Origin: Lyophyllum atratum
Lineage: Eukaryota > Basidiomycota > Agaricomycetes > Agaricales > Lyophyllaceae
Direction of reading: 5' to 3'
Length of the DNA: 64,000 bases
Assembly (NCBI GenBank): GCA_014905825.1
Contig: JACGCN010000001.1
Location: forward strand, 1,612,001 to 1,676,000
In this document: positions 2,258-37,616 of the stretch, piece by piece
How positions within the stretch are numbered: the first letter of the stretch is position 1
How the letters are laid out: the number at the start of each line of letters is the position of its first letter
Program-made: the position numbers and the translations under genes
Notes under the pieces: generated by a model
What the model was told of the DNA's origin: nothing
Databases searched by the model: none
The model's input: the letters and a program-made list of their open reading frames with translations, nothing else

Positions 2258-2443
2258 TGTAGCGGGGCTACGGGGGGTCTTGCAGTTCACGCTACGTAAG
2301 CTTGACCAGTCTTGGTATTTGCTACGTATGCGTGAGGTTACAAGTGTCTGGTTTGTACATGTTTACTACAGGCCTGTTATAGACGACACCGAGGGTGTCG
2401 CCAAACAAGCCAAACAAAGCCCAGTAAGGGCGGGGCCCTTACA
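2258..2443 (-). repeat. A1 3' LTR (186 bp)
   Basis: Starts TGTAGC and ends TTACA on the plus strand, giving TG..CA ends. It is identical to the other LTR. It holds three perfect hairpins: GTAGC/GCTAC (2259-2271), CGACACC/GGTGTCG (2384-2400) and GTAAGGG/CCCTTAC (2424-2442). In A2 the first two hairpins differ only in the loop. Confidence 0.95.
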
Positions 2444-2844
2444 TACCCCCCTTTAAGATTGCCTAACGCAATCTTCCAGGAGGGATAGGGATATCGATGT
2501 ATTAGTCTATAGGGTAGACTTATACACTAAACTAGTGGATGATATATGGGGCCTAGGACCCGTCGTCCTAGGCATGATTCTGAAAGTATACCGACTGCGT
2601 AGAGTCGGTACCTTAGTAAAGTAAAGTGTACGATCACTATGACATAGTGATCGTAACATAAAGTGAGGACCCGTCGTCCTTATATACTAAAAAAGAAACC
2701 CAAGGATAGTTCGAGTAGTCCTTGGGCATGAATCGATAATTCACAAAAAAGCCTATCGATTCGAGTATCGATAGGCGCAACGCCATGACTGGGTCAGTGA
2801 AGACCGCAATGACGGTTTACACCGTCGGTCGCCTACCCGGGAGT
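2444..2844 (-). promoter_or_regulatory. A1 3' UTR with a cluster of seven hairpins
   Basis: The 401 bases between the third ORF and the 3' LTR carry no gene. They hold a run of inverted repeats: 2551-2559/2565-2573 (9 bp), 2589-2596/2603-2610 (8 bp), 2629-2641/2643-2655 (13 bp with a one-base loop), 2666-2670/2676-2680 (5 bp, same CCGTC loop as the first), 2699-2706/2719-2726 (8 bp), 2751-2760/2767-2776 (10 bp) and 2811-2816/2821-2826 (6 bp, with an outer GACC/GGTC clamp). Function is unknown. Packaging, export, cDNA priming or protection of the RNA are all possible. Confidence 0.8.
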
Positions 2845-5594
2845 TCACTCCTTCATCGCGGTATCCTCGAGCATGTCATTGGTCGGATTTTGTATGACCT
2901 CCATGCTTGTGGATCCTTGCGTCGACTCCTGGTTGGGCGGACGTGTTCCGTCCGTACCAGGGCTGGTTGTGATAACCGCAGACGCGAGGGGCACATTGAG
3001 GGCCGTCGCGGGATCCACGATGGTTTCAGGGACTGAGGTAGTCCCTGCGACTGTGGTCGAAGTCGCGGGAGGAGGGGCAGGGTTGTCGACGGGTGTCATT
3101 GCAACGTCGTTAGTGGACGACGTTGACCCCATCATGTTTTGTTGTGCCACAGTGTAGTCTTCACGCCGTGGCAGTAGGGTGAACAGGGGATCAGCCCCAA
3201 CACGTACCCATTGACGACTTGCAAAGCAGTCAATAGATTGTGTATCAAATTCATGCCGCATTAGCGCTTGAATGCGCGTAATGTCGGCTTGAGTTGGATG
3301 GCGCCATCCAGACCATTCGGGTATGGTCTGGGGCACCCCGATACGGTGGAGACGATCGATGCGTTGATCATCGATCGTTCGGAAGAATTCGAGTAAGGGA
3401 GGACCACCCTGTGCGTTATATGGGTAGTGGTGTTCCCACCAACGGTTGGCATACGCATAGGAGTGGTCTACCCATGCAATGGGTATCCCAACATTAATCA
3501 TGTGCTCCAGCACATGTAAATCGGTAAGGCGTTCGACACCATCTGGTCGAACGAACCGGTTCAGAGTCACAGTTTCTCCTGGAATGGCCGTGATCGTCCT
3601 TCGCGGACGATCCGGGTGTGCCGCGTAGTATGCTGCTACAGCCTCAGCATACAACCCAGGTCGGGCTAGTATGCCCAGGAAGAGTCGTGTGAACCATTGT
3701 ACATCTGCCGTCGCGGACGGCAGGAGTACAGCCAATAATCGAAACCCAAAGATCGATGGGTAGTAAACGCGCATCGCATAATCGATTGCGATGCCGGAAA
3801 AAGAATTAACTGAGCCAGGTCGCCCATGGTGGGCGACCTGCTGAGCCCAGCGTTCAATATTGAACGCCTCTTCGCTCGTCGGAGGTGGCAATCCGGCACC
3901 ATGGCCCGACTTGCGTGGTTTGGTCTTGAGAACGCCAGCTGGGCGTTCAACAGGAGGGAACGAATTCAACCTTGCGTCCTTGGGGAATGGATTGTCAAGG
4001 CGCGGGATATCAGGATTTTCCCAGGCCGCATTCAACGTAGCATCGTGCCAACTCGAGTGTAGGCACAATGCTAAGCGAAGGAACTCCTTCAGCAGTTTAT
4101 ACGCCTGAAGGCGATCTTCTCGGGGGAAGTTCTTCTTCGGGAACTGCACGAGGTTGACCAATTGATTCAATTGGCGGGGATTCATGGGGAATCCTCGTGG
4201 TAACAAGCTGTAGAGTCGTCCTTGGGGGACGTACTCCCGATTGTTCGCTAGTTCAAATCGTGACGCGGCCGCAGCTTCGTGCGCCGCGTACACACGATTG
4301 CTGTAGGGAGAATGATAGATATTATAATCTAACATGCCGAGGAATGAGTTATCCCTCTCCCAGCGGTTCTCGCGGAACACAACCCCGACGTTGTCAGGGA
4401 TGCGTCCCGGTAGTTCGAGCTGAGCTAAGCGGCGACGCTCTGCCGCTTTCTCTTCGCGTTTGCGATCCCGGTCTTCTCGTTGACGAGGGGTCAACTTGTC
4501 CTCGTCATCGGAACCGCCTGAGGACTCGCCATAATCGGTGTCCCCAGTTGGTTTGTACTGATGCCGGGGTGGCGATGGCGGTTGAGGTGTAGGAGCCGGT
4601 GGCCGTACAGCGACAGCAGGAATACGAATCGTTATGGTCTCTTGGACACCTCTACGATTCGGGACCTGTACCCTTGGCTCAGGTGGAGGAGGAACATCGG
4701 ATAGTTTTGTCTGGGGCGTCGCAGATGCCCCAGACGTACTCTGGACGTCCGCTGATTCCGATGCAGACGGTTGCCTATCCATCGCTAGTGGGGATGGCTG
4801 CCGTCCGCGCCTTGTAGGCTCCGGGCCTACAGGCCGATCAGGCCGTCCTGGACCATCTCGACGCGCGTCTCGTGGACGCCGTCGCTCATCGTACGGAAGC
4901 TCTGGATAACCGCGACGCTCGTATGGTCGTCGGTCATCGAAGTGTGATCTCCTCGCTTGGTCGAGGCTCTCAACTTCTTGACGTTTCGGTGGGCGATATG
5001 CATATTCTCCTCCGCGATCCGGAGAAGACATCGCCAATCTTTTCCTACTAGGGCCTGCCTGCTCGTGTGAGGCGCGCCCATAGTCTAGGGACTCCTGCCG
5101 AGCGAGTCTGCGCTCGAGCTCGGTCACGCGTTCGCGTGCTTCCAACAGGTCATCGAGGAGCATCCCAACGACGACCTGCGCCGTTCCGTCATCGTTTCGT
5201 AGGAACTGCACCATATCGGATGCAAATCCGGCGCGCTCAAGTCGTCGGAATACCCGTTCGAGAGCGGCGTCTCGAATGAGTGTTTCCCTATTTGATGTTT
5301 TGGAGGAGGACGACGCCGTGCGGTCGTCCTCACGTCCTTTTCTTTGAGGGGGAGGAATATCCCCTCGAGGCACCGGTGCTGGTGGTATCGGGGCCATGGG
5401 ACGCTCCGGTAGCGATCCCTGGCGTCCCTGATCCGGGGTGTCGTCCATTCGGTCGGTCGGCTGCGCTGGCCATGTTCCTTGAGTTGAGTGCAGGGCCGGC
5501 TGCGCGTGCCAGTCCTGCCCAGGTTGCTGGTAAGGCACCGGATTCCCTGAAAATCCGGTGTTCTGAGGTTGGGTATAGGGCGGCTGCCCCATGA

Positions 5595-5634
<40 letters not shown>

Positions 5635-5988
5635 TTGCGGTTGTTGTTGTTGTTGTTGTTGTGGATGTGGTTGGAAGTACATCGGCTGGGGAAGATAGGT
5701 CATATGCGGGTGACCGTATCCGCCCATCGGTTGTTGCATGTACGGCTGGTTCATGAAACCAGCCGTCGGCATCTGCATTTGGTTCGGATTTTGATATTGC
5801 CCGTATGGGGCGTACGCGTTGGCGGGTTGGACAGGTGGCTGTTGCGCCGTGTTTTCTGGGAAAACACGGCCCTGAGCCCCTTCTCCCCCCATAAGGCTCG
5901 TTCCCGAGCCTGATGCTGCGCTGGAGCCACCGTGTGGGCCCCAGGCGTTCGGGTTCTGCTCTTGCTGGTTGGTTCCGTCTTGTTCCAT
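2845..5988 (-). CDS. Third ORF of family A (env position), 1047 aa, function unknown
   Basis: It starts at an ATG (5988) 145 bases after the pol stop and runs 1047 codons. Residues 1-180 are Q/P/N/G-rich with long glutamine runs (encoded around 5590-5660). Residues about 230-310 contain heptad-like, charged helices (LERVFRRLERAGF, ARERVTELERRLARQ) suited to a coiled coil. Residues 310-530 are R/D/E/P-rich and probably disordered. Residues about 540-990 look folded, with many W, Y, F and P. No signal peptide, no transmembrane segment and no CCHC, protease or RT motif is visible, so it is not an envelope glycoprotein by sequence. The same ORF follows pol in A2, there broken. A structural or RNA-binding role is only a guess. 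Expression would need a spliced or internal mRNA or reinitiation. Confidence 0.85.
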
Positions 5989-6133
5989 TGGATCGAGGTG
6001 GATCGGATGGGTGTGCTACGTGTCGACTGTGGGTGTCGAGCGAAAGAGGACTTAACCGATTTATGGTTTGCGGGCGCCATCACTGATCTCAACAATTGAT
6101 GCTTCACGTGACACGCACATGACCGCGACGCGT

Positions 6134-9100
6134 TCATTTGCGTTTCGCGAGTCCCCGCGGCGTCTTGACACCTTGCAGTTCAAGGTACCGGCCTAAGGCC
6201 TCAAGGTTCTTGCACCCATCATGAGGTTCCCAGGTGGTGTCTCCCAGACTCCACCTGACTTCGTACTCTAATTTCTTATCTTCGGTCCATCGGTGACCCA
6301 AGATTTCATCAACGAACCATTCTTGGTCGTTGGGAGCACCAAAATCATAGGGCTCCGGTTGAGCCCTATTGGGAAATAGCGCATCATTACTAGCATTATA
6401 AGGCCGTAGTAATGACACATGGAACGTAGGATGTATCCGCCGCGCCTGTAAGGCTGTCGGCAATTCCAATGTATATGTAGATTTTGCCGGAATAGCATTC
6501 AATACTTTATACGGCCCAACGTATTTGGGACATAACTTCCTTGCGCGTCCTTTTGGCAAATTGAGGTTCTTGGTTGATAGGTAAACCAAGTCCCCTTTCT
6601 TAATTTGCGGTTCTGCAGCTCGCTTCGTATTTGCATACGCTGTCTGAAAGACGCGAGCTTCAATAATATTATCATGTGCCTCTGCTAAATTCCTCAGAGC
6701 TTGTTCGGCATAAGCTTTGATTCCTTTAGGTAGCACTTCATCGGAGCGAATCTCCTTTATCATTGACGGCATATATCCACCGTTAAGTTCAAACGGTGCA
6801 AACTTCGTCGTGGCCGATATGCTAGCGTTGATCGCAAATTCGCTCATCGGAACGCGATCAACCCAGTCTTTCTGATCGTGTCGTACCACGGCTCGAAAGA
6901 TCTGGGCCACATTCCTATTAGCGCGTTCGGTCTGACCATCCGTCTGAGGATGGAAGGACGTAGACATGAGTAGCTTTGTACCCATCATCTTGTGGAGTTC
7001 GCGCCACCATCGAGAGGTGAACTTCGAATCACGATCACTAACGATCGAGCTCGGTAGGCCATGCAATCTTACTATTTCACGAAGGTAAATCCATGAAAGT
7101 TCAGCCGCGGTGTTCTTCGTGGTTACAGGTAACAGATGCACCATGCTGGTCATCCGACAAATTATAACCCATAGATAGTTAAAGCCTTTAGACTCCGGAA
7201 ATGGTCCAACGAAGTCCATTCCTATCGAGTCCCAAGGTTTTGTTGGTACGGGCAGCGAGTGGAGCTGTCCCGAGGGTTTCTGGTTTGATGTCTTCGTAAC
7301 ATGACATGATTGGCATGTTCGACAGAACTCTCGCACGTCTCTGGACATGCTTGGCCACCAATACCATCGACGAACGTACTCGGACGTACGTTGGTCTCCG
7401 AAGTGCCCAAGCGTCTGATGCGCTTGTTCAATGATGGACGTAGTCAGTTCCGGTATACGGGGTACACACAAAACGGATTCGCCCGCGAGATTCTTAGTCC
7501 ATATAAGGTCGTTCTTCATATTGAAGTGCTTATATCGTTCAGGCTTTTCTTTAATATAGTTGAAGAGTTTATCTTCATCATACCCCTTCGCAATACGATT
7601 ACGAAAGGATGTGTCGACTAAGTCTGGTGGAGAAGCCGCGGTAGCCTTGCCCATAAGTGCTTCTCCCAGAGTCATGTTCTCGCTTGCGTCTATGTTGACT
7701 GAACCCTCGCGTATTGACGGTTCATTATGTCGTTGGGACGCTCCAGGAGTAGCTTCATTCATAATCTGCGCTTCTAAGTCGCGATCTTCTTGCTGCTCTT
7801 GGAAGCGTTTACTACGCCGAAGTTGGGCTTCGTGCATAGAACGCATTTCAACTACTTTGTCCACGACTTCTTTATATCGTGGAGGTGGTAGATCTTCTCC
7901 AGTAGGGTCGATTCGGGCATCGACATTCACATAGTCATGTATATCATGTACATCATTAGCTGTATCGCTTTCGAAATAGCGAGACAAGCAATCAGCCACT
8001 TTATTCAAGTCGCCTTTGACGTAGGTAATGTCGAAGTTGAATCTAGCCATGTAGTCAATCCATCTCCGTTGACGTGGAGTAAGATTTCCTTGAGTTCGGA
8101 AGAACTCCAAGGCTTTATGGTCGGTAATAATGTGGATCTTATATCCCACAAGTTTGTCCTCCCATTTCATCAAGGATTCCAGTATCGCCAGAGTTTCGCG
8201 TTCGTGTACCGCGTAATTCTGCTGAGCGCTGGTGAATTTCTTGGACATAAATCCAGCGGGTCGACATTCGAGCCACGTCGGCCCTTGTCCGTACATGGCG
8301 CCGACACCTGATTTGGATGCATCGCATATCACCCAAATCGGTATGTCGTTCTTCGGCTTGATGGGTTGAATGATTGGTGTTTTACAGCAGATGCGCTTGA
8401 TCATTTCAAAACATCGCTGATGAATAGGTCTCCAATAGAAGGAAGACCCGTTCTGCGTGATGGACATAAGGGGTCCGGTGTAGGCGGAAATATCTGGCAG
8501 AAAACTGCTCAGATAATTCACGAGTCCTACAAACCTCTGAATGTCGTTGTAATTCCGAGGTGTTCTCCAGTCCCGGATGCGCGCTAGCTTGTCGGCATCG
8601 GGATGGATACCTTGGTCGTCAATAATATGACCAAGGCAATCAACTCGGTCTGAATATAATTCACATTTCTTCCACTTTAGATACAACGAGTATTCTCTGA
8701 GTCGTTCGAAGATGACTCGGAGATGTTGCTCGTGTTCCTCGATAGTTTCCGAAAAAATGAATATGTCGTCAAGGTAGACGTGCATAAATTTTCCAATAAC
8801 ATCTCGAAAGATGGATGTCATCAATCTTTGAAACGTCGCAGGAGCATTGCAGTCTCCTATTTGCATGATATTGCTGACGTATGTTCCGACGATCGTTGCG
8901 AACGCCGTTTTCCATACGTCTTTGAGCAGTACACGAACTTGCTCATAGGCATCCGTCAAGTCGATTTTTGAGCGGATTTTTCCTCGGGCGACATCTTCAC
9001 GGATGACCTCTTGATCGGGTAGAGGTGTAACATCCTTTATGGTATTGTCGTTACGTTGCCGCGCATCGAGCGGCGTACGTAGAGATCCATCTTTCTTCGA

Positions 9101-10180
9101 AATACATAGCAGCGGGGCTGCTTGTTTCACTGGCCGATGTTCCCACCATCCAGCATCCACATATCTATTGATCTTCGCATGGAATTCATCACGAAGAGAC
9201 ATGGGACATCTTGGGGCATGGTATTGATATTGTTTTGATTCATCAATGAGGTTAATCTCGTGATTAACCTCTCGCCATGGTGGTAAGGTCGGCTTCGTAC
9301 CGCTGACCATGTCTTCAAATTCATCGTGCCATTGTTGTCTGAGCCTAGGATAGTCGTCTTCGGATAGGCGACTATCATCAGCTTTTCCTTTGCCTTTCCG
9401 TAAGGTATGAGCAGCTCGAATAGATGCTTCAGCCCGTTTCGTCGAATCTATATCGAACCGAGCACGCAATTTATGAAGACTAAAGTCCCCTTCATCGCGT
9501 ACTGGTAATCGATACTTCGGTCGCACATAAGGCTGCTTCGGTTTGGTTTCAGTGAAGTCCATAACCTCAGAGATTTCATCGGGTTCGGGATTCCGATAAA
9601 CTTCTCCAGGCAGCTGCTTATGCTGTCCTTCGTAGGCCCTCATGGAAGCGACTACTTCGTTCCATTCCGCGGGCATGCGGTGATCATACATCCACTCGTA
9701 ATGTGGATTTGGCGTTGGTCTGTCCCAGAAGGACCGCGTACTCTTCTCAGTATTCTGTTGTGACTTTTCGTCCTGGTTTTCTAAGTCTTTATCGATCATC
9801 TCTTTGAGGCGATCGCGTAACACGCTTGAAGACGGTTCGGGTACCGTATCCAAGGTCACTTTGCTTGATGAAGCCACTGGTTGTGCTTCATCTGACTTCC
9901 TTTTGATTTTCGGTTTTCGTTGTGGATGTTCCTGTTTTTGTTGGTTGAGCCCCTTCGAGCGGCGCTCTTCCTTTTTCGCTGATTTCTTATTCGTTTCTTT
10001 AGGGGGTAATGCCGGATTCCCCCCTTTCAGAGTTTCCTGAAACTCTTCTTCCGATAACAATAGGGCCCCATGGTCTTTTGGTAAACTGTTAATGGCGAGC
10101 CCCTCTGTACCGGGCTCGTCATCATCGACTACGGTGGCTTTTCGTATAGAGCCTCCGTATCCTTCTTCCGGGCCATGGAG
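6134..10180 (-). CDS. pol: A1 Pol: RT, RNase H, integrase, chromodomain (read-through product of gag)
   Basis: The frame is the same as gag and is open from the codon after the gag UGA (10181-10183) to 6134. No ATG precedes the conserved RT region near the start, so fusion to Gag by UGA read-through is the simplest expression route. Counting from 10060: RT with HVYLDDIFIF near residue 430; RNase H with VICDASKSGVGAMYG near 580; integrase HHCC zinc finger (HQTLGHFGD, CRTCQSCH) near 885-930; integrase core with GMDFVGPF, SIVSDRDSKF and TDGQTERANR (the D, D, E residues); then a C-terminal chromodomain with EWFVDEILGHR and YEVRWSLGDTTWEPH. The chromodomain places it among chromoviruses and would steer insertion to marked chromatin. 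Stop at 6134. Confidence 0.92.
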   Translation of the reverse strand, partial: LHGPEEGYGGSIRKATVVDDDEPGTEGLAINSLPKDHGALLLSEEEFQETLKGGNPALPPKETNKKSAKKEERRSKGLNQQKQEHPQRKPKIKRKSDEAQPVASSSKVTLDTVPEPSSSVLRDRLKEMIDKDLENQDEKSQQNTEKSTRSFWDRPTPNPHYEWMYDHRMPAEWNEVVASMRAYEGQHKQLPGEVYRNPEPDEISEVMDFTETKPKQPYVRPKYRLPVRDEGDFSLHKLRARFDIDSTKRAEASIRAAHTLRKGKGKADDSRLSEDDYPRLRQQWHDEFEDMVSGTKPTLPPWREVNHEINLIDESKQYQYHAPRCPMSLRDEFHAKINRYVDAGWWEHRPVKQAAPLLCISKKDGSLRTPLDARQRNDNTIKDVTPLPDQEVIREDVARGKIRSKIDLTDAYEQVRVLLKDVWKTAFATIVGTYVSNIMQIGDCNAPATFQRLMTSIFRDVIGKFMHVYLDDIFIFSETIEEHEQHLRVIFERLREYSLYLKWKKCELYSDRVDCLGHIIDDQGIHPDADKLARIRDWRTPRNYNDIQRFVGLVNYLSSFLPDISAYTGPLMSITQNGSSFYWRPIHQRCFEMIKRICCKTPIIQPIKPKNDIPIWVICDASKSGVGAMYGQGPTWLECRPAGFMSKKFTSAQQNYAVHERETLAILESLMKWEDKLVGYKIHIITDHKALEFFRTQGNLTPRQRRWIDYMARFNFDITYVKGDLNKVADCLSRYFESDTANDVHDIHDYVNVDARIDPTGEDLPPPRYKEVVDKVVEMRSMHEAQLRRSKRFQEQQEDRDLEAQIMNEATPGASQRHNEPSIREGSVNIDASENMTLGEALMGKATAASPPDLVDTSFRNRIAKGYDEDKLFNYIKEKPERYKHFNMKNDLIWTKNLAGESVLCVPRIPELTTSIIEQAHQTLGHFGDQRTSEYVRRWYWWPSMSRDVREFCRTCQSCHVTKTSNQKPSGQLHSLPVPTKPWDSIGMDFVGPFPESKGFNYLWVIICRMTSMVHLLPVTTKNTAAELSWIYLREIVRLHGLPSSIVSDRDSKFTSRWWRELHKMMGTKLLMSTSFHPQTDGQTERANRNVAQIFRAVVRHDQKDWVDRVPMSEFAINASISATTKFAPFELNGGYMPSMIKEIRSDEVLPKGIKAYAEQALRNLAEAHDNIIEARVFQTAYANTKRAAEPQIKKGDLVYLSTKNLNLPKGRARKLCPKYVGPYKVLNAIPAKSTYTLELPTALQARRIHPTFHVSLLRPYNASNDALFPNRAQPEPYDFGAPNDQEWFVDEILGHRWTEDKKLEYEVRWSLGDTTWEPHDGCKNLEALGRYLELQGVKTPRGLAKRK

Positions 10181-10183
10181 TCA
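10096..10183 (-). promoter_or_regulatory. Candidate UGA read-through site between gag-protease and pol
   Basis: The gag stop is UGA followed by C (UGA CUC), a context known to be leaky in eukaryotes. Downstream in the same frame there is no further stop before RT. A 7-bp hairpin (10112-10118 with 10096-10102) lies about 63 bases after the stop and could stimulate read-through. In A2 the UGA CUC and the open frame are conserved, but this hairpin keeps only four pairs. Confidence 0.6.
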
Positions 10184-13100
10184 CTCGCGCTTCTCAATGG
10201 ATCGATACCGACGAGCTCGGCCGTCCGTATCTTCTAACGCCACGCGCACAGCTGGCGTCGCGACTCCATTGACTACCACCTGGTGGTTCTTGAAGTCCAG
10301 GATGACGTTATTGGCATGCATAAATGGTGTGCCAATAATTACATCATATCGGTCAAAGTTCGCCAGGTCCATGTACACTGGCCCTTTGAACCCTGCCGTT
10401 TCAATCTGCACTTCGGTACCGTAAATGACCGAAGCGCGGCTACCCGTTGTTCCTAGTTGCAGGATCATCGGGTTCTCCAATGGGTAAACTTTTATCTTCG
10501 ACACCTGCGCGAATGCAGGTGTCATACCAGTAGTAGAACTACCGGTATCCCATAACGTCCATGCCTCTTGTCCACCTACGTTGGTGTAGGTAGCCAGGCA
10601 TTCTTTGGTTTCCGCAGGGTAGATAGGACGTTGTATCTTATTCTTCCCTGCGTGTAATTGGACCTTTCGCATTCGAATGACCTTGTCTTTGTCATTCGTC
10701 TTCTTGTCTTTCGGCGGCGGTGCCTCCGAAATTCCAAAGACTCGATCCGAGATTTCCGGGTGTGACGCATCGCTATCGGTCGGCGATCCTTCCCAGATTC
10801 CGTGCATATGCTCAGAGTCTGACTCGTCGTAATCGTAGACTTCGACTTCAATCATATCGTCATCATGTTCGCCCAGTTCGGACTCAGGACGATCGACTTC
10901 ATCGTCTTCGGCATCTGCATCGTGCGCAGATTCCGAGTCGTCGTCACCCGACTCGCCTTCGGTTCCGTCTACAGCCGTTCGCATAGCGCGCATGTGTGCC
11001 CGCTGCTGCTTCTTCGGATCTGGACACTCCTTCGCGAAGTGACCAGTTCGTCCGCAGTTGAAACATTTAGATCCACCTGCGGTTTTCTGATGGCCTGGTT
11101 TATCCATCTTAGCCATCGGCTGATAGCCTGGCTTACTATCGTTGGACTTGTAAGGTGGTTTCGTGTCCACCTTATTATCCTTGCGATAATCGTCTCGCTT
11201 TTTGAACGGCGTTGGTCGACTAGATCGGAATAATCCTTTCTTGTAGTCGCCACGTCGTACAAAGGCTTTCCTAGGAGCACCTTCGCGATGCTCCTGACTT
11301 TCTCTGGAAGGCGCAGTGTACCGCTGTCGAGTTACACTAGCCGACTTGTCATAGTATTTAGCCGTCTTCTTAGCAGATTCATAGGCTTTAGCAAGCGCTA
11401 AGAATTCCTCGGCTGTGTTGACTTCAGGCGACAATCCTTCATCGAATAGATGATTGCGCATATCCGTCGACATTGCTGACACGAATCGGTCACAGAACAT
11501 CCAGTCCGTAACCTTAACGGCCATATTCTGTGAATGATCGACAAGGGTGTCGAACAAGTCTTGAACGTCGGCATGCTGTTTATATGAGACGGCGTTGAAC
11601 TCGTCACGCGCGTCTTGCATGGTCGACGGTAGGATAAATCGATCATATAGACCGAATATAACCTCTTCGAACTTCCACTCTTCTTGAGTTCGGTTGACAT
11701 GGATGACATGCCGCACGAACCATCGTTTGGCTTTGCCATCCAAGAACTCTAGTACCATGATTACACGTTCCTGTTCGAGGTCAGGACCGCCTAGTCTGGA
11801 TACTGCCATTAATAAGACCAGGCTGTGAAGCCAGGTCTCTAGCTCTTGGAACTTCGGACTGCCGGAATAAGTTCCAACCGATTTTGAATCGGTTCGTCGA
11901 GGCTTTAATCCTTCGGGTAGGTGTAGCCGTGTTCCCAAACGCATGAAGATCAATTTGCTGATGCGTTCATGAATGAGTGCGCGATAGCGCTCCTCATTCT
12001 GCTGTATCCCGTCCGCGATATCGGCGGTTCGCCTATTCGGTGCGGGCATCGAAAATCCCCTGCCATTGGCAGTTGATTGCGTGTATGCTGACGTCGATCG
12101 ACGGGGTTCAGCATACTCTTCTTGATGCACGGGAGCTATGCTTTGTCCGCGTGCTGACTTGTGGGTCTGCGTTCTGCTAGCCCACTGTCGCTTCATGTCG
12201 TCTATGGGCTGTCGCCCTTCGAACACGATTCCCTGGTCCGAATATATGGATTTCTGCCCATTTTTGATATCGGCGATTCGTAAGCGTTGATACGAAACTC
12301 GATCATCGAAAGTATCAGCGATAGGTACGCTATCGGGGAGTAGTTTCTCCGGTAAATGCGCCTTTCGCTTCTTTGGTGGGATTTGAATGACAGCGTCGCC
12401 GTCATTCTCATCCGAACTACTATACGATTCATATTTTAAATTGGCGATCGTCGGTGGTTCATACGACGAGTCGCTAGTTCGTGGTACGCGCGAGTCGATT
12501 GTCACCGAGTGGCGTACTCGCTTTTCACGTCGAGCTGCATGCTCGCGCCGTTTGTATTCGCTGGTGCTTTCATCAGGTCGGCGCGACTGATGCATGATCG
12601 ATACTGCGACAGCCCGTTCGTCTATGGGCTGTCTCATCTCTTGCGCTACGGCCTGTGGAGTCACTGGCTCCACCCGTTGCTTTCCTTTATCTAACGGACG
12701 GATAGTGGAGGGAGCAGGCGAATTTATTACTGATGATGCTATAGACGAAGTTCCCGTAGGGTACTTCTGCTTGTACAAGTAGATAACCCTAGGCAAGATT
12801 TCGAGCATCCTCTCGAAGTACTGCTCGCGAGTGCTGTTCGCGGGAGTCACCCCATGCTTCACGGATAGAAGCTTTTGGGCGCACTCCTGCAGTCGTTCCC
12901 TTCGGCGGATACTGTCCATGCCGATAGCCTGCCAAAAGGCGTCTAGCCTGCTCTGTTCGCGTTCGAGCTGCCTGTCGGCCTCGAGTACGTCGAACTCTCC
13001 ATCCGAGGACTCTAGGCCCAACGGGTCTGGAGTTAGAAAGCCATGGGAGGGTCGTGTACCCCCATGGTCGCCGTCGTCGCTCGAAAAGTTGCCGAAGGAG

Positions 13101-13498
13101 GGTCTGGTACCTCCTTGAGCTGGTCCTACTGATCCTAGTCGCATTGCCGGGCTGGCAATATTGACAGGAGGTAGACGTATTCTGCCTCCTGAACCACCGG
13201 CTTGAGAGGCGTCTGCTAGTTCCTGCGCTAGCGTTCGCCCTTGCGATGCTTGTCTTCGCATCGTTTCCAATGCCGGGTGCCTCGGCCGACTCGTTCCGGG
13301 ACGAGACGGTTGCGCTGAGGTCGTTGGCCTAGCCAACGACCCTTCTTCCGGACCCGTGTCTTCTTGTTTTAGTCGTGACGTTCGCAGTGGCCTCTCCGCT
13401 TCGAGTAGCGGAGGGGGCGTCACCGGCGTCGCACCCTGTTGCGTGGGTGTGGTTGTTGATGGACCTGTGGTCGGGTCGGGTTCCGGATTCGTCGCCAT
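10181..13498 (-). CDS. gag: A1 Gag-protease, 1105 aa
   Basis: ATG at 13498-13496, about 100 bases inside the 5' LTR. The N-terminal 480 residues are charged and low in complexity. A capsid-like region follows (about 540-720, with KFQELETWLHSLVLLMAV and LDGKAKRWFVRHVI). A CCHC zinc knuckle, CFNCGRTGHFAKEC, lies near residue 805. An acidic stretch is followed by a retropepsin-type protease with WTLWDTGSSTTG near residue 983 and DVIIGTPFMHANN near the end. The protease is thus upstream of the stop and made with Gag, while RT lies beyond the UGA. The product should form the particle and mature itself. Confidence 0.92.
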   Translation of the reverse strand: MATNPEPDPTTGPSTTTPTQQGATPVTPPPLLEAERPLRTSRLKQEDTGPEEGSLARPTTSAQPSRPGTSRPRHPALETMRRQASQGRTLAQELADASQAGGSGGRIRLPPVNIASPAMRLGSVGPAQGGTRPSFGNFSSDDGDHGGTRPSHGFLTPDPLGLESSDGEFDVLEADRQLEREQSRLDAFWQAIGMDSIRRRERLQECAQKLLSVKHGVTPANSTREQYFERMLEILPRVIYLYKQKYPTGTSSIASSVINSPAPSTIRPLDKGKQRVEPVTPQAVAQEMRQPIDERAVAVSIMHQSRRPDESTSEYKRREHAARREKRVRHSVTIDSRVPRTSDSSYEPPTIANLKYESYSSSDENDGDAVIQIPPKKRKAHLPEKLLPDSVPIADTFDDRVSYQRLRIADIKNGQKSIYSDQGIVFEGRQPIDDMKRQWASRTQTHKSARGQSIAPVHQEEYAEPRRSTSAYTQSTANGRGFSMPAPNRRTADIADGIQQNEERYRALIHERISKLIFMRLGTRLHLPEGLKPRRTDSKSVGTYSGSPKFQELETWLHSLVLLMAVSRLGGPDLEQERVIMVLEFLDGKAKRWFVRHVIHVNRTQEEWKFEEVIFGLYDRFILPSTMQDARDEFNAVSYKQHADVQDLFDTLVDHSQNMAVKVTDWMFCDRFVSAMSTDMRNHLFDEGLSPEVNTAEEFLALAKAYESAKKTAKYYDKSASVTRQRYTAPSRESQEHREGAPRKAFVRRGDYKKGLFRSSRPTPFKKRDDYRKDNKVDTKPPYKSNDSKPGYQPMAKMDKPGHQKTAGGSKCFNCGRTGHFAKECPDPKKQQRAHMRAMRTAVDGTEGESGDDDSESAHDADAEDDEVDRPESELGEHDDDMIEVEVYDYDESDSEHMHGIWEGSPTDSDASHPEISDRVFGISEAPPPKDKKTNDKDKVIRMRKVQLHAGKNKIQRPIYPAETKECLATYTNVGGQEAWTLWDTGSSTTGMTPAFAQVSKIKVYPLENPMILQLGTTGSRASVIYGTEVQIETAGFKGPVYMDLANFDRYDVIIGTPFMHANNVILDFKNHQVVVNGVATPAVRVALEDTDGRARRYRSIEKRE

Positions 13499-13596
13499 GT
13501 GGTCTCGTTGCTTCTTTGGGTGACGTGATGGTAAATCGCGTCGCGGGTTCGGCCGTAGGTCGCGTCGTAGCTTCTAAGCTGGATAGCTTAAAAAAA
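13499..13596 (-). other. A1 leader between 5' LTR and gag
   Basis: 98 bases hold the 5' leader. Immediately inside the LTR, minus strand, is TTTTTTAAGCTATCC, where a primer-binding site would lie. It does not look like a standard tRNA 3' end complement to me. The related element at 38.1 kb has the same T-run plus AAGCTA at its LTR edge. Confidence 0.6.
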
Positions 13597-13782
13597 TGTA
13601 GCGGGGCTACGGGGGGTCTTGCAGTTCACGCTACGTAAGCTTGACCAGTCTTGGTATTTGCTACGTATGCGTGAGGTTACAAGTGTCTGGTTTGTACATG
13701 TTTACTACAGGCCTGTTATAGACGACACCGAGGGTGTCGCCAAACAAGCCAAACAAAGCCCAGTAAGGGCGGGGCCCTTACA
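13597..13782 (-). repeat. A1 5' LTR (186 bp)
   Basis: Identical to 2258-2443, with TG..CA ends, and followed by the TCAAT target duplication (13783-13787). It should hold the promoter and polyadenylation signals. No strong TATA box is visible. Confidence 0.95.
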
Positions 13783-14412: not shown

Positions 14413-14615
14413 TGAGAGCCTGACCCGGGGAGGGGGCCAAGGCTACACTAAACAGATCACGCACCAGAACAGAACCTTGATATATTTCGTATACGAGAGA
14501 CGAGTATCAGAGGAAGCCGTAGTGGTAGTTAGAGGTAAGGATGAGTAGAGTCCGCGTGTGGCCAGTTATGGCCACATATGCATAAACAACCGGATATGGT
14601 AACCGCAGGATTACA
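14413..14615 (-). repeat. Element B 3' LTR (203 bp)
   Basis: Begins TGAGAGCC and ends GATTACA on the plus strand. Holds one 7-bp hairpin, GTGGCCA/TGGCCAC. Followed internally by the C-run that is the polypurine tract on the minus strand. Confidence 0.9.
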
Positions 14616-14786
14616 CCCCCCCCCTGCCCTGAAAAAATACGCACATGTAGCACAGAATACCAAGCGGGGAAGGGAATGGGGACGTAGGTCAAAAAAAATA
14701 AAACTGCTCACGCGGGTGCATTAAAAACCCAGTGGGAAAAGCTACCGGCGGCAGGGACATGGAGAAGGATAACAGAACAAGTCGTC

Positions 14787-25330: not shown

Positions 25331-25516
25331 TGTAGCGTGGCTACGGGGGGTCTTGCAGTTCACGCTACGTAAGCTTGACCAGTCTTGGTATTTGCTACGT
25401 ATGCGTGAGGTTACAAGTGTCTGGTTTGTACATGTTTACTACAGGCCTGTTATAGACGACACCGAAGGTGTCGCCAAACAAACCAAACAACGCCCAGTAA
25501 GGGCGGGGCCCTTACA
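25331..25516 (-). repeat. A2 3' LTR (186 bp)
   Basis: TG..CA ends, identical to 37431-37616. Compared with A1, GTAGCGGGGCTAC has become GTAGCGTGGCTAC and the GACACC loop is GAA instead of GAG. Both are loop changes. Confidence 0.95.
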
Positions 25517-25914
25517 TACCCCCCTTTAAGATTGCGTGCAGCAATCTTCCAGAGAGGATATAGATATACGTGTATTAGTCTGTAGGACAGACTTATACAA
25601 TAAATAGTTGATGATATATGGGGCCTAGGACCCGTCGTCCTAGGCATGGTTCTGAAAGTGTACCGACTGCGTATAGTCGGTAACTTTGTAAAGTAAAGTA
25701 TACGATCAGTATGGCATATTGATCGTAGCATGAAGTGAGGACCCGTCGTCCTTATGTACTGACAAGAAACCCAAGGATAGTTCGAGTAATCCTTGGGCAT
25801 GAGTCGATAATGTCCAAAAAAGCCCATCGATTCGAGTATCGATAGGCGCAGCGCCATGACTGGGTCAGTGAGGACCGCAATGACGGTTAAACCGTCGGTC
25901 GCCTACCCGTACTT
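25517..25914 (-). promoter_or_regulatory. A2 3' UTR with hairpins
   Basis: Homologous to 2444-2844. Most hairpins survive, often with changed loops. The 13-bp stem is at 25701-25713/25715-25727 with a G-T pair replacing C-G. The 10-bp stem near 25.83 kb has lost one pair. Confidence 0.75.
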
Positions 25915-28900
25915 TCACTCCTTCATCGCGGTATCCTCAAGCATGTCATCGGTCGGATTTGGTATGACCTCCATGCTTGTTGATCCTTGCGTCGACTCCT
26001 GGTTGGGCGGAAGTGTTCCGTCCGTATCAGGGCTGGTTGTGGTAACCGCAGACGCGAGGGGCTCATTACGGTCCGTCGCGGGATCCACAATGGTTTCAAG
26101 GACTGAAGTAGTCCCTGCGACTGTGGTCGAAGTCGCTGGAGGGAGGGCAGGGTTGTCGACGGGTGTCATTGCAACATCGTTAACGGATGACGTTGACCCA
26201 ATCATGTTGCGTTGTGCCGCGGTGTAATCTTCACGCCGCGGCAGTAGGGTAAATAGGGGGTCAGCCCCAACACGTACCCATTGACGACTTGAAAAGCATT
26301 CAATAGATTGTGTATCAAATTCATGCCGCATTAGCGCTTGGATGCGCGTAATGTCGGCTTGGGTTGGATGGCGCCATCCAGACCATTCGGGTATGGTCTG
26401 GGGCACCCCGAGACGATGGAGACGCTCGATACGTTGGTCATCAATCGTTCGGAAGAATTCTAGTAAGGGAGGACCACCCTGTGCGTTGTAAGGGTAGTGG
26501 TGCTCCCACCAACGGTTGGCGTAAGCATATGAATGGTTTACCCATGCGATGGGTATTCCAACATTAATCATGTGCTCTAGCACATGTAAGTCGGTAAGGC
26601 GTTCGACACCGTCTGGTCGAACGAACCGATTCACGGTCACTGTTTCTCCTGGGAGGGCCGTGATTGTCCTATGAGGACGATCCGGATGTGCGTCGTAGTA
26701 TGACGCTACGGCCTCAGCATACAATCCAGGTCGGGCTAGTATGCCCAGGAAGATTCGTGTGAACCATTGTACATCTGCCGTCGCGGATGGCAGTAGTACA
26801 GACAGTAATCGAAACCCAAAAATCGATGGGTAGTAAACGCGCATCGCATAATCGATTGCGATGCCGGAGAAAGAATTAACTGAGCCAGGTCGCCCATGGT
26901 GGGCGACCTGCTGAGCCCAACGTTCAATATTGAACGCCTCGTCGCACGTCGGAGGCGGCAATCCGGCACCATGGCCAGACTTGCGCGATTTGGTCTTGAG
27001 AACGCCAGCTGGGCGTTCAACAGGAGGGAACGAGTTCAACCTCGCGTCCTTGGGGAATGGATTGTCAAGGCGCGGGATATCAGGATTTTCCCATGCCGCA
27101 TTCAACGTAGCATCGTGCCAACTCGAGTGTAGGCACAATGCTAGGCGGAGGAATTCCTTCAGCAGTTTATACGCCTGAAGGCGATCTTCTCGGGGGAAGT
27201 TCTTCTTCGGGAACTGCACGAGGTTGACCAATTGATTCAATTGGCGGGGATTCATGTGGAATCCTCGTGGTAACAAGCTGTAGAGTCGTCCTTGGGGGAC
27301 GTACTCCCGATTGTTCGCTAGTTCAAATCGTGACGCGGCCGCAGCTTCGTGCGCCGCGTACACACGATTGCTGTAGGGAGAATGATAGATATTATAATCT
27401 AACATGCCGAGGAATGAATTATCCCTCTCCCATCGGTTCTCGCGGAACACAACCCCGACGTTGTCAGGGATGCGTCCCGGTCGTTCAAGCTGAGCTAAGC
27501 GGCGACGCTCTGCCGCTTTCTCTTAGCGTTTGCGATCCCGGTCTTCTCGTTGACAAGGGGTCAACTTGTCCTCGTCATCGGAACCGCCTGAGGACTCGCC
27601 ATAATCGGTGTCCCCAGTTGGTTTGTACTGATGCCGGGGTGGCGATGGCGGTTGCGGTGTAGGAGCCGGTGGCCGTACCGCGACCGCAGGGATACGAATC
27701 GTTATGGTCTCTTGGACACCTCTACGATTCGGGACCTGTACCCTTGGCTCAGGTGGAGGAGGAACATCGGATAGTTTTGTCTGGGGCGTCGCAGATGCCC
27801 CAGACGTACTCTGGACGTCCGCTGATTCCGATGCAGACGGTTGCCTATCCATCGCTAGTGGAGATGGCTGCCGTCCGCGCCTTGTAGGCTCCGGGCCTAC
27901 AGGCCGATCAGGCCATCCTGGACCATCTCGACGCGCGTCTCGTGGACGCCGTCGCTCTTCGTACGGAAGCTCTGGATAACCGCGACGCTCGTATGGTCGT
28001 CGGTCATCGAAGTGTGATCTCCTCGCTTGGTCGAGGCTCTCAACTTCTTGACGTTTCGGTGGGCGATATGCAGATTCTCCTCCGCGATCCGGAGAAGACA
28101 TCGCCAATCTTTTCCTACTAGGGCCTGCCTGCTCGTGTGAGGCGCGCCCATAGTCTAGGGACTCCTGCCGAGCGAGTCTTCGCTCGAGCTCGGTCACGCG
28201 TTCGCGTGCTTCCAATAGGTCGTTGAGGAGCATCCCAACGACGACCTGCGCCGTTCCGTCATCGTTTCGCAGGAACTGCACCATATCGGATGCAAATCCG
28301 GCGCGCTCAAGTCGTCGGAATACCCGTTCGAGAGCGGCGTCTCGAATGAGTGTTTCCCTGTTGGATGTTCTGGAGGAGGACGACACCGTGCGGTCGTCCT
28401 CACGTCCTTTTCTTTGAGGGGGAGGAATATCCCCTCGAGGCACCGGTGCTGGTGGTATCGGGGCCATGGGACGCTCCGGTAGCGATCCCTGGCGTCCCTG
28501 ATCCGGGGGTGTCGTCCATTCGGTCGGTCGGCTGCGCTGGCCATGTTCCTTGAGTTGATTGCAGGGCCGGCTGCGCGTGCCAGTCCTGCCCAGGTTGCTG
28601 GTAAGGCACCGGATTCCCTGAAAATCCGGTGGTCTGAGGTTGGACATAGGGCGGCTGCCCCATGAGCTGTTGCTGTTGCTGTTGTTGTTGTTGCTGTTGT
28701 TGCTGCGGGTGAGGTTGAAAGTACATTGGTTGGGGAAGATAGGTCATTTGCGGGTGACCATATCCGCCCATCGGTTGTTGCATGTACGGCTGGTTCATGA
28801 AACCAGCCGTCGGCATCTGCATTGGGTTCGGATTTTGATATTGCCCGTATGGGGCGTACGCGTTGGCGGGTTGGACAGGTGGCTGTTGCGCCGTGTTTTC

Positions 28901-29032
28901 TGGGAAAACACGACCCTGAGCCCCTTCTCCCCCCATAAGGCTCGTTCCCGAGCCTGATGCTGCACCAGGGCCACCGTGTGGACCCCAGGCGTTCGGGTTT
29001 TGCTCTTGCTGGTTGGCTCCGTCTTGTTCCAT
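25915..29032 (-). pseudogene. A2 third ORF, broken by a +1 frameshift and a nonsense codon
   Basis: The ATG at 29032 opens a frame that follows the A1 protein to about residue 190, with a shorter glutamine run. It then shifts by one extra G in a G-run near 28504-28508. The original frame continues to a TAA at 27523-27525, where A1 has GAA (Glu). Beyond it the frame is open again through the folded C-terminal region to the stop at 25915. Two separate lesions show this copy no longer makes the full protein. The rest is closely similar to A1. Confidence 0.88.
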
Positions 29033-29177
29033 TGGATCGAGGTGGATCGGATGGGTGTGCTACGTGTCGACTGTGGGTGTCGAGCGAAAGAGGACTTAGC
29101 CGAATTATGGTTTGCGGCGCCATCAACTGATCTCAGCAATTGATGTGTCACGTGACACGCACATGACCGCGACGCGT

Positions 29178-36200: not shown

Positions 36201-37332
36201 GTGCCTTTCGCTTCTTTGGTGGGATTTGAATGACAGCGTCGCCGTCATTCTCATCCGAACTACTATACGATTCATATTTTAAATTGGCGATCGTCGGTGG
36301 TTCATACGACGAATCGCTAGTTCGTGGTACGCGAGAGTCGATTGTCACCGAGTGGTGTACTCGCTTTTCACATCGAGCTGCATGCTCGCGCCGTTTATAT
36401 TCGCTGGTACTTTCATCAGGTCGGCGCGACTGATGCATAATCGATACTGCGACAGCCCGTTCGTCTATGGGCTGTCTCATTTCTTGCGCTACGGCCTGTG
36501 GAGTCACTGGTTCCACCCGTTGCTTTCCTTTATCTAACGGACGGATAGTGGAGGGAGCAGGCGAATTTATTACTGATGATGCTATAGACGAAGTTCCCGT
36601 AGGGTACTTCTGCTTGTACAAGTAGATAACCCTAGGCAAGATTTCGAGCATCCTCTCGAAGTACTGCTCGTGAGTGCTGTTCGCGGGAGTCACCCCATGC
36701 TTCACGGATAGAAGCTTTTGGGCGCACTCCTGCAGTCGTTCCCTTCGGCGGATGCTGTCCATGCCGATAGCCTGCCAAAAGGCGTCTAGCCTGCTCTGTT
36801 CGCGTTCGAGCTGCCTGTCGGCCTCGAGTACGTCGAACTCTCCATCCGAGGATTCTAGGCCCCGCGGGTCTGGAGTGAAAAAGCCATGGGATGTTCGTGT
36901 ACCCCCATGGTCGCCGTCGTCGCTCGAAAAGTTGCCGAAGGAGGGTCTAGTACCTCCTTGAGCTGGTCCTAATCGCATTGCCGGGCTGGCAATATTGACA
37001 GGAGGTAGACGTATTCTGCCTCCTGAACCACCGGCTTGAGAGGCGTCTGCTAGTTCCTGCGCTAGCGTTCGTCCTTGCGATGCCTGTCTTCGCATCGTTT
37101 CCAATGCCGGGTGCCTCGGCCGACTCGTTCCGGGACGAGACGGTTGCACTGAGGTTGTTGGCCTAGCCAACGACCCTGCTTCCGGATCCGTGTCTTCTTG
37201 TTTGAGTCGTGACGTTCGCAGTGGCCTCTCCGCTTCGAGTAGCGGAGGGGGCGTCACCGGCGTCGCACCCTGTTGCGTGGGTGTGGTTGTTGATGGACCT
37301 GTGGTCGGGTCGGGTTCCGGATTCGTCGCCAT
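33225..37332 (-). pseudogene. gag: A2 Gag-protease, split by a foldback element
   Basis: ATG at 37332. The frame matches A1 Gag through the zinc knuckle CFNCGRTGHFAKEC and the acidic region, then runs into the insert at 34520 and stops at 34471. The protease part (WTLWDTGSSTTG, IIGTPFMHANN) continues on the other side from 33721 to the UGA at 33225. The small 33225-33770 frame begins inside the insert and is not a real start. This copy cannot make protease or Pol fused to a normal Gag. Confidence 0.9.
33725..34520. mobile_element. Foldback (near-palindromic) MITE, 796 bp
   Basis: AT-rich insert in A2 gag. Its ends are CACAGGGTG and the inverted CACCCTGTG, flanked by TGA on both sides (33722-33724 and 34521-34523), a 3-bp target duplication. 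The two halves are imperfect reverse complements over almost their entire length, about 390 bp per arm, with matching blocks such as AAATATAGTGAGCAAA and its inverse. It has no ORF. Ends in CAC and a 3-bp duplication suggest mobilisation by a CACTA-type transposase, but PIF/Harbinger is not excluded. Confidence 0.85.
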
Positions 37333-37430
37333 GTGGTCTCGGTGCTTCTTTGGGTGACGTGATGGTGAGTCGCGTCGTGTGTTCGGCCGTAGGTCGCGTC
37401 GTAGCTTCTAAGCTGGGTAGCTTAAAAAAA

Positions 37431-37616
37431 TGTAGCGTGGCTACGGGGGGTCTTGCAGTTCACGCTACGTAAGCTTGACCAGTCTTGGTATTTGCTACGT
37501 ATGCGTGAGGTTACAAGTGTCTGGTTTGTACATGTTTACTACAGGCCTGTTATAGACGACACCGAAGGTGTCGCCAAACAAACCAAACAACGCCCAGTAA
37601 GGGCGGGGCCCTTACA
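37431..37616 (-). repeat. A2 5' LTR (186 bp)
   Basis: Identical to 25331-25516. Followed by target duplication TGCAG. The 98 bases to the gag ATG match the A1 leader, including the T/A-run and AAGCT at the LTR edge. Confidence 0.95.

Follow-up and report, generated by a model that had tools for sequence, protein, structure and literature searches.

Codon choice seems to fold the RNA of a fungal Ty3/gypsy retrotransposon into short hairpins, on a scale familiar from strongly structured RNA viruses

Plus-strand RNA viruses with genome-scale ordered RNA structure (GORS) combine a folding-energy excess along the whole genome with very many stem-loops; their pairing positions are poorly conserved among relatives, their paired sites are less variable, and the accessible portion of the source describes the function as uncharacterised, with no agreed one (PMC7642675). 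Values given there for 350-nt windows are 7.5-10.7% for HCV, 12.5% for human pegivirus, ~15% for SARS-CoV-2 and 23.4% for the highest coronavirus quoted (PMC7642675). SHAPE mapping of Ty3, Ty1 and HIV-1 genomic RNAs has located structured regions within coding sequence, these RNAs being described, in the part of the report available, as mosaics with stable regions of up to 30% (Ty1, Ty3) or ~40% (HIV-1) (PMC11381356). In maize transposons, local hairpins are common in most superfamilies, according to the accessible text (PMC10760457), and quasipalindrome or template-switch mutation is reported, in the available sections, to homogenise the arms of inverted repeats and to invert spacers (PMC7202029, PMC8604942). 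Our literature searches found no report of GORS in any retrotransposon.

Here, we analysed a window, that is, the whole 64,000-nt stretch at positions 1,612,001-1,676,000 (forward strand) of Lyophyllum atratum contig JACGCN010000001.1 (assembly GCA_014905825.1). Its element A1 (Table 1) has the protease-RT-RNase H-integrase order, flanking LTRs and target duplication of the Ty3/gypsy elements (Metaviridae); the LTRs are identical to each other, the duplication is 5 bp (ATTGA), and RT, RNase H and integrase are matched by Pfam. The match after the integrase to a chromo domain, the mark of Ty3/gypsy chromoviruses (E 6.2e-4, 20.1 bits), lies below the curated cut-off of 25.1, and the Pfam search with the ORF3 protein gave no match. 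The hairpin-rich A1 RNA is the minus-strand transcript. In the second copy, A2, ORF3 is frame-broken and gag is split by an insertion.

Table 1. Features of the hairpin-rich elements in the window
Feature	Coordinates	Strand	Evidence or remark
Element A1, Ty3/gypsy LTR retrotransposon, three ORFs	2258..13782	-	LTRs, target duplication, Pfam matches
A1 5' LTR, 186 bp, TG...CA	13597..13782	-	hairpin 13763-13781 inside
A1 gag-protease ORF	10181..13498	-	weak Ty3 capsid match, zinc knuckle, aspartyl protease
A1 gag/pol junction	10181..10183	-	UGA stop then CUC, pol in frame
A1 pol open frame: RT, RNase H, integrase, weak chromo domain	6134..10180	-	Pfam
A1 ORF3, 1047 aa, 3,144 nt	2845..5988	-	
A1 3' UTR, densest hairpin cluster	2444..2844	-	6 perfect hairpins/400 nt
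A1 3' LTR	2258..2443	-	hairpin 2424-2442 inside
Element A2, second copy, ~95-96% identical to A1	25331..37616	-	target duplication CTGCA
F3 relic, LTR and gag part, 87-89% identical to L032	37916..39226	+	

Perfect hairpins, counted as exact stems of at least 8 bp with loops of at most 12 nt, number 40 in A1, against a mean of 1.74 (maximum 6) in 100 dinucleotide shuffles. The first-pass annotation had listed 21 of them by eye, all of which are present where it placed them with the stem lengths it gave, one (5743-5765) extending by a further pair to 5742-5766. Its 13 hairpins in ORF3 are real, although the full count is 20, and its chance estimate of ~0.6 agrees with the dinucleotide shuffles (0.60). 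Codon-preserving shuffles (500 per gene) likewise fall far short, with 1.21 (maximum 8) for ORF3, 0.76 (maximum 4) against 6 for pol (6134-10060) and 0.57 (maximum 4) against 6 for gag. Density is highest in the 3' UTR, whose count is reached in 0/500 shuffles and which includes a 13-bp perfect hairpin at 2629-2655, and in ORF3; gag and pol together hold 12 in 7.2 kb. Hairpins do occur in LTRs, UTR and all coding regions, as that annotation held, but the single hairpin of each LTR is unexceptional alone, being matched by 19/500 shuffles. The claimed contrast with element B stands at 34.7 versus 6.6 per 10 kb, with the correction that B itself has a slight excess (4 versus 0.95, reached in 8/500 shuffles) and that positions 38000-64000 hold 15 against 4.4, a count attained in 0/100 shuffles. 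Three other Ty3/gypsy-type stretches have 3.3, 0 and 1.7 per 10 kb, and three arbitrary host stretches 1.7, 0 and 1.7. A1 is not, however, the sole hairpin-dense element: A2 and the related families F2 and F3 are hairpin-rich as well. The A2 gag part alone is not enriched (2 versus 0.44, reached in 37/500 shuffles).

The excess extends to folding energy along the whole element. In 350-nt windows, the MFED of A1 is 23.1%, i.e., the predicted fold is about 23% more stable than shuffles; 56/56 windows lie below the shuffle-mean energy and 93% have z < -2, so that, as in GORS viruses, the energy is below that of composition-preserving shuffles throughout. The corresponding values are 22.6% for A2 (across 25331-33721), 22.2% for F3, 19.3% for F2 and 11.8%, half the A1 level, for E, compared with 1.7% for B, 2.2% for the three other gypsy-type stretches and -0.3% for host sequence. 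Each of the 9 genes tested from A1, F2, F3 and E exceeds all of its 25 codon-preserving shuffles in stability, with MFEDs of 22-28% in A1, F2 and F3 (27.6% for A1 gag-protease, 26.6% for pol 6134-10060 and 26.4% for ORF3) and of 12-13% in E; B pol is also below all 25, yet by only 3.7%. The predicted folds of A1, F2 and F3 show no excess of long helices (~20 bp or more), those of at least 20 pairs numbering 1-2 per 10 kb, as against 2 in B.

Measured in the same way, the RNA phages MS2 and PP7 reach 29.0% and 24.0%, respectively, near the A1 value. The 23.1% of A1 can also be set beside the GORS values quoted above (PMC7642675), which were obtained with another shuffling program and another step size. 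GORS viruses have plus-strand RNA genomes, whereas A1 is a fungal LTR retrotransposon with a DNA stage. In 120-nt windows, MS2, PP7, AP205 and GA have MFEDs of 21-27%, strand-symmetric and depleted of G-U, and A1, F2 and F3 have 23-25%. Contiguous helices of at least 8 pairs in predicted folds number 67-78 per 10 kb in these elements, 75 in MS2 and 44-62 in the other phages. By contrast, perfect local 8-bp hairpins are rarer in phages (5-20 per 10 kb, 2-7 each) than in these elements (~35), A1 gag and pol alone being within the phage range, and extended helices of at least 12 pairs are more frequent (35-56 versus 19-31 per 10 kb). Like the RNAs of Ty3, Ty1 and HIV-1, as far as the available text describes them, A1 RNA is structured in its coding sequence, but its energy excess is continuous and known from prediction only (PMC11381356). 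The maize hairpins are defined, in the accessible sections, by likeness to pre-miRNAs and tied to small RNAs (PMC10760457), whereas those of A1 are short and long helices are not enriched. The excess of long helices expected of pre-miRNA or Dicer-feeding hairpins is not seen in the predicted folds, helices of at least 20 pairs being at the level of element B.

Comparison of the two copies supports a codon basis for the structure. At third codon positions, paired sites diverge roughly half as much as unpaired ones within family A (Mantel-Haenszel odds ratio 0.42, z -5.1, with structure from A1; 0.49, z -3.8, with structure from A2), which is the GORS pattern of lower variation at paired sites; the effect is weaker at first and second positions and not significant there with the A2-derived structure. 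Given also that codon-preserving shuffles lose the structure, the earlier suggestion that synonymous codon choice in A1 was shaped for pairing is supported, whereas the extension to the whole RNA and to a group of families, the phage-like level and the positional turnover had gone unseen. In hairpins ascertained in A2, stems are less variable than loops and flanks, differing from A1 at 4/501 stem, 15/173 loop and 56/764 flank positions. Stems ascertained in A1 differ from A2 at the element-wide rate (20/685 versus 292/9452 in the rest), a rate exceeded by loops and flanks, so that part of the stem contrast reflects local context. No difference between stem and flank variation was found in the F2 comparison (L013/L019), and one F3 comparison out of three has more variation in stems than in flanks (2/144 versus 1/255). 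Among families, pairing positions differ, again as in GORS viruses: compensatory change in pol shows no excess over the control (44/119 = 0.37 versus 0.355), and a few hairpins are common to more than one family, e.g., that at pol columns 176-193.

On the branch leading to the A1 group, 6 of 84 changes form hairpins (random expectation 1.9) and 1 breaks one (9.7), whereas among 510 changes on terminal branches 16 are hairpin-forming (15.1) and 42 breaking (54.4). This difference favours selection over a mutational quirk, although the test is one of a single branch, the A2-group branch having given only 10 polarised changes. Terminal branches contain few reverse-transcription cycles, and the terminal-branch argument against a mutational origin is not conclusive. 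Natural selection seems to maintain the hairpin folding of A1-type elements, and we consider it likely that this is GORS in an LTR retrotransposon, the whole RNA being selected for local self-pairing. The computed support comprises the structure excess, its codon basis, the lower divergence of paired sites and the directional change on one persisting branch.

The hairpin excess consists of Watson-Crick pairing and is almost symmetric between strands: sense and antisense folding do not differ significantly when G-U is disallowed, one-mismatch stems lack a G-U bias (pooled, 51 G-U and 78 A-C), and paired sites are just as depleted of divergence when structure is predicted on the antisense strand (odds ratio 0.47-0.52), so the selected strand is not readable from sequence alone. 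Watson-Crick pairing and strand symmetry also count in favour of a mutational origin, in which reverse transcription or replication would fold back on the nascent strand and copy one arm, so that imperfect inverted repeats become perfect (quasipalindrome correction) and hairpins of no use accumulate; the short arms, near each other, fit it as well. Moreover, selection for energy simulated on random sequences yields 4 and 5 perfect hairpins per 5.8 kb (7-9 per 10 kb), against ~35 here, so that selection on stability may not suffice to account for the perfect stems. In one F2 copy, the LTRs (201/205 identical) differ solely by the inverted 4-nt loop (TTCC/GGAA) of a 9-bp hairpin, a classic hairpin-inversion event of the kind described in the available sections on quasipalindrome mutation; unlike the expectation from that process, terminal branches show no hairpin-forming excess (PMC7202029, PMC8604942). 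On this fresh-mutation test (16 versus 15.1 expected of 510), the hairpins do not behave like template-switch products, the one loop inversion apart. Furthermore, MFED in the strongly constrained pol and gag is no lower than in ORF3, family E is poor in perfect hairpins despite the same host and a similar RT, and RNA phages have the strand-symmetric signature too. One-mismatch 9-pair stems often lack a synonymous restoring change (82/193 versus 0.48-0.51 in shuffles), a mild shortage that filtered template switching could also produce. On balance, a mutational origin appears unlikely.

Slightly less probable still is that the hairpins are dispersed packaging signals, bound by the Gag nucleocapsid or the ORF3 protein to condense the RNA into particles. 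Such signals have been proposed for RNA phages, in three families hairpins are spread along the UTR and every ORF, and several family A hairpins keep their stems while loops vary; yet the families share no loop motif in 3-mer counts, the top ones being CGA in A1 (17 versus 10.4, p 0.03 uncorrected), ATA in F2 (13 versus 3.9, p 0.0002, ~0.01 after 64 tests) and TTC in F3 (9 versus 3.1, p 0.005 uncorrected), and the predicted ORF3 structure was too poor to use (mean pLDDT 35). Palindromes acting in integrated or cDNA copies, as cruciforms or as targets of dimeric DNA-binding proteins, would fit the Watson-Crick arms, the symmetry and the F3 hairpins, many of which have loops of 1-3 nt and spans clustering at ~17-20 bp, but we regard DNA-level palindromes as very improbable: stem sequence varies between sites, A1 favours loops of at least 3 nt over 0-2, RNA phages show the same symmetry although they never pass through DNA, and the structure is written into codons of all ORFs. 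As for composition, codon usage, protein repeats or chance, the small excess in B and the over-representation of short direct repeats (8-mers, gap 0-12: 13 versus 1.6 in A1, 6 versus 0.8 in B) indicate some general local repetitiveness, far weaker than the hairpin excess; given the wide margins over codon- and dinucleotide-preserving shuffles, which refute it, this explanation has a negligible chance of being correct.

Under GORS, synonymous codons and untranslated sequence would fold the RNA, ~11 kb long, as a succession of short hairpins, most of their pairs Watson-Crick, with stems of about 6-11 bp and loops mostly of at most 12 nt. The RNA presumably folds in this way inside cells; loops are closed by a 5' pyrimidine in 109/177 hairpins (0.495 in shuffles), an excess expected if hairpins physically form. 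The benefit may lie in avoidance of dsRNA and RNAi, in packaging or in protection. Most plausibly, each stretch would be promptly occupied by its own hairpin, keeping the genomic RNA compact; RNA folded on itself would not anneal with antisense copies, and hence would form no long duplexes feeding fungal RNA interference, while few helices would reach the length at which Dicer cuts well. Among the roles proposed by the first-pass annotation, feeding of silencing is the least compatible with the predicted folds, since these show no excess of long helices. A more speculative version, to which we give a minor chance, is a convergent, RNA-phage-like “fold you must” genome, in which RNA and complement both fold below Dicer length, impeding sense/antisense annealing; if so, synonymous codons would encode a physical barrier to RNA interference running along the whole sequence.

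Hairpin-rich families A, F2 and F3, the half-structured E and unstructured relatives in one nucleus constitute a natural experiment: families within one cell can be set against each other for RNA stability, small RNAs, antisense transcripts and copy number. If the selective reading is correct, “synonymous” sites of retrotransposons can be under constraint, and dating and dS-based tests would be misled. Positions 37625-40924 of the window are moderately structured (MFED 9-10%), and the F3 relic accounts for part of this stretch only. Finally, the UGA-CUC at the A1 gag/pol junction is a probable readthrough site, and UGA-CU is likewise found at the gag/pol junction of F2, F3 and E.

A1 (2258-13782, transcribed from the minus strand) has an identical LTR pair with TG...CA ends and the target duplication ATTGA, and is a young Ty3/gypsy LTR retrotransposon; a second copy, A2 (25331-37616), is ~95-96% identical to it. 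The source genome (64.8 Mb) contains 36 matches to the third ORF (ORF3), 30 of them with loci, and DNA comparison of these loci separates four families, A, F2 (L012-L014, L019), F3 (L020-L027) and E (L015-L017), whose pol proteins, compared with one member per family, show mutual identities of 68-72%.

The first-pass annotation described A1 as packed with perfect short hairpins. All 21 inverted repeats that it named are exact, and the hairpin richness is confirmed, but its extent is broader than claimed, as F2 and F3 are equally rich. Perfect stems of at least 8 bp occur at 34.7 per 10 kb in A1, 34.5 in F2 and 37.2 in F3 and at 4.5 in E, the F2, F3 and E sets comprising two loci each, hand-trimmed against overlap and possibly including short flanks. 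Element B, which is unstructured, has 6.6; three further gypsy-type stretches from this genome have 3.3, 0 and 1.7, and three arbitrarily chosen parts of the host DNA have 1.7, 0 and 1.7. Most of the A1 excess has loops of 0-16 nt; a small remainder extends to 30. The loops of F3 (L021, L032) are shorter than those of A and F2, with a peak at 1-3 nt and a total span of ~17-20, a family-specific geometry.

The folding energy shows an excess of structure along the whole RNA. In 120-nt windows of the sense strand, A1, F2, F3 and E are 25.4%, 23.1%, 24.0% and 12.1% more stable than dinucleotide shuffles, vs 3.5% for B, 3.9% for two other gypsy-type stretches and 0.2% for two host stretches; the RNA phage MS2 reaches 26.6% and the E. 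coli rRNA operon 7.5%. For A1, 350-nt windows give 23.1%. Under codon-preserving shuffling, the excess is 26.4% in ORF3, 26.6% in pol and 27.6% in gag of A1, 24.7% and 21.8% in pol and ORF3 of F2, 25.4% and 24.1% in those of F3, and 12.3% and 12.9% in those of E, compared to 30.1% and 23.9% in two MS2 genes and 3.7% in B pol, which likewise falls below all 25 shuffles. Structure is thus as high in the conserved pol as in ORF3, even though ORF3 is the richer in perfect hairpins. When 1-2250, 14408-25325 and 37625-64000 were scanned, the only other stretch with clear structure was 37625-40924 (9-10%), and the bin after it had a weaker excess. An F3 relic (37916-39226) sits within 37625-40924, but this stretch was dropped as a blind confirmation because, of its 12 windows of 120 nt with strong structure, just 3 begin in the relic; locally structured windows (z to -5.5) also occur beyond it, at 39360-39960 and 40800-40980.

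Folding stability alone may not predict the short-hairpin style. Per 10 kb, perfect 8-bp hairpins numbered 7-9 after simulated selection for similar folding energy (4 and 5 in 5.8 kb each) and 5-20 in four RNA phages (2-7 each), as opposed to ~35 in A1, F2 and F3. In A1, the contrast with the phages resides in ORF3 and the 3′ UTR, gag and pol (12 in 7.2 kb) being within the phage range, whereas in F2 and F3 pol carries it too (14 and 13 perfect hairpins, respectively). We narrowed a more general contrast in perfect hairpins to local Watson-Crick hairpins with short loops: contiguous helices of at least 8 pairs, with G-U allowed, number 67-78 per 10 kb in predicted folds of A1, F2 and F3 and 75 in MS2. 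Predicted extended helices of at least 12 pairs (31, 19 and 22 in A1, F2 and F3; 35-56 in the phages) are about as common as in B (25), and thus the prediction for these RNAs is one short local hairpin after another, with no surplus of long duplexes. Such a style would be expected if the RNA has to avoid being recognised as dsRNA, to refold quickly and independently, or to bind protein.

Several comparisons bear on whether selection or mutation maintains the hairpins. Stratified by gene and base, third codon positions that are paired in the predicted structure are about half as divergent between A1 and A2 as unpaired ones, with an odds ratio of 0.42 (z -5.1) for the A1 structure, against a null of 201 rotations of that structure (mean -0.07, sd 1.10, minimum -3.6), and 0.49 (z -3.8) for the A2 structure; the predicted antisense-strand structure gives a similar contrast (0.47-0.52). 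Stems of family A are less variable than their loops and 15-nt flanks, a contrast of which ascertainment in one copy accounts for a part that we estimate at about half at most. The hairpins are located in stretches that vary more than the remainder of the element, and A1-ascertained stems differ as often (20/685) as that remainder (292/9452). The stem contrast in F2 is present in L012/L013 comparisons and absent in L013/L019; in F3, changes are too few. Stems avoid the 3:3 codon phase (50/176 vs 0.37-0.48 in shuffles), to which we give little weight, as it fits synonymous tuning but filtered template switching as well.

The test that discriminates selection from mutation is the balance of hairpins formed and broken along branches. 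Of the 84 changes on the A1-group branch, polarised by L008/L011, 6 formed and 1 broke a perfect stem of at least 7 bp, compared to 1.9 and 9.7 for random changes of the same type (Poisson P 0.013 and 0.0006). With only 10 polarised changes, the A2-group branch is uninformative. Hairpin-directed template switching possibly contributes to the hairpin style: in one F2 copy, the 5′ LTR (L031 438-642) and the 3′ LTR (L012 4716-4920) differ solely by the exact inversion of a 4-nt loop (TTCC/GGAA) in a 9-bp hairpin, a hairpin inversion caught in the act. A mutational engine should also act on single-copy (terminal) changes, which are mostly recent and little selected, and among 510 of these in four families hairpin formation is near random (16 forming, 15.1 expected; 42 breaking, 54.4 expected), a rate to be read with the few reverse-transcription cycles that terminal branches span. 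Between families, at 64-67% nucleotide identity in pol, fully compensated pairs (44 of 119 double-changed) are not above the control (0.355). Hairpins are generally not kept between families, so that the property is conserved while positions turn over, as also described for genome-scale ordered RNA structure (GORS). At the ORF3 loci, sense-strand C/T differences exceed A/G differences ~2.5:1 in A (69 vs 28, L001/L004) and F2 (60 vs 23, L012/L013), possibly through a strand-specific mutation bias; no such skew is seen in F3 (31 vs 28, L021/L027).

Given that the excess is Watson-Crick and nearly strand-symmetric, selection could have acted on two strands. The phages MS2, PP7, AP205 and GA display the same excess, unlike rRNA. 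The folding z of A1 is -2.24 for sense and -1.69 for antisense, which we rejected as proof of sense-RNA selection because the difference is non-significant once G-U is disallowed. Moreover, G-U use relative to shuffles is similarly depleted on both strands (A1 0.73 and 0.73; F2 0.86 and 0.76; F3 0.79 and 0.79); thus, much of the gap is a composition effect of shuffling. When selection was simulated on random sequences, the sense-antisense difference was ~1.0 for sense-only and ~-0.2 for two-strand selection, and the observed values (A1 0.63, F2 0.35, F3 0.19, phages 0.06-0.48) all fall between these extremes; simulated one-strand selection, too, depleted G-U on both strands. One-mismatch stems (G-U vs A-C) were set aside as a means of excluding RNA selection, this test being weak, with 7 G-U and 5 A-C in MS2 itself. 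The preference for pyrimidine-purine closing pairs (109/177 hairpins vs 0.495 in shuffles) speaks for hairpins physically forming; the families were not found to share a loop motif.

As predicted from folding in one genome, the property is best classed as GORS-like, with a carrier of a new kind; the carrier is the only tested GORS feature in which it departs, and any function of the structure is inferred. Energy excesses quoted in PMC7642675, obtained with a different shuffling program from that used for A1, include 7.5-10.7% for HCV, ~15% for SARS-CoV-2 and, as the highest quoted for a coronavirus, 23.4%. A literature search combining GORS and retrotransposon returned no report of GORS in a retrotransposon among the matches listed (titles and abstract starts, with few subscription papers covered).

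Coding features of A1 and gag/pol junctions of the four families
Feature	Position	Strand	Details
gag-protease ORF	10181-13498	-	A1
pol ORF	6134-10180	-	A1
ORF3	2845-5988	-	A1; 1047 aa, Q/P-rich N-terminus
gag/pol junction UGA	window 10181-10183		UGA-CUC
gag/pol junction UGA	L031 3871-3873		UGA-CUC
gag/pol junction UGA	L032		UGA-CUG
gag/pol junction UGA	L033		UGA-CUA

In the one member read in each family, pol continues the gag frame after a single UGA, and CU follows that stop. As UGA-CU is a classic leaky stop context, readthrough of the stop probably produces gag-pol. The ORF3 protein had no matches in Pfam and its AlphaFold model was unusable; among 7997 candidates scored in a first protein search there was no hit, perhaps owing to the low-complexity N-terminus. 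A region search with ORF3 recovered 3 relatives (34-39% identity), the two named ones being from Lyophyllum shimeji and Tricholomella constricta, which we take to be Lyophyllaceae; the host is accordingly probably an agaric. The portion of ORF3 at ~500-960 is more conserved, and the protein has relatives across all four families and in these two mushrooms; no relative was confirmed in the viral contigs searched. The sequence after the 5′ LTR (13560-13596, TTTTTTTAAGCTATCCAGCTTAG) could form a small hairpin, and no obvious tRNA primer site was seen there by eye. The A2 gag is interrupted at 33725-34521 by a 797-bp insertion, 79% identical to its own reverse complement, which is a foldback element.

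Elsewhere in the window, 40765-56122 includes two 4-kb copies (40765-44765 and 49061-53064) that are 99.9% identical. A 360-bp end recurs, in direct or inverted orientation, at 43196, 51495 and 55760, and a match to Tnp2 transposase (52761-53474) points to a CACTA-like DNA transposon. A pol relic at 56724-57275 carries a Tf2-1-like SH3 domain.
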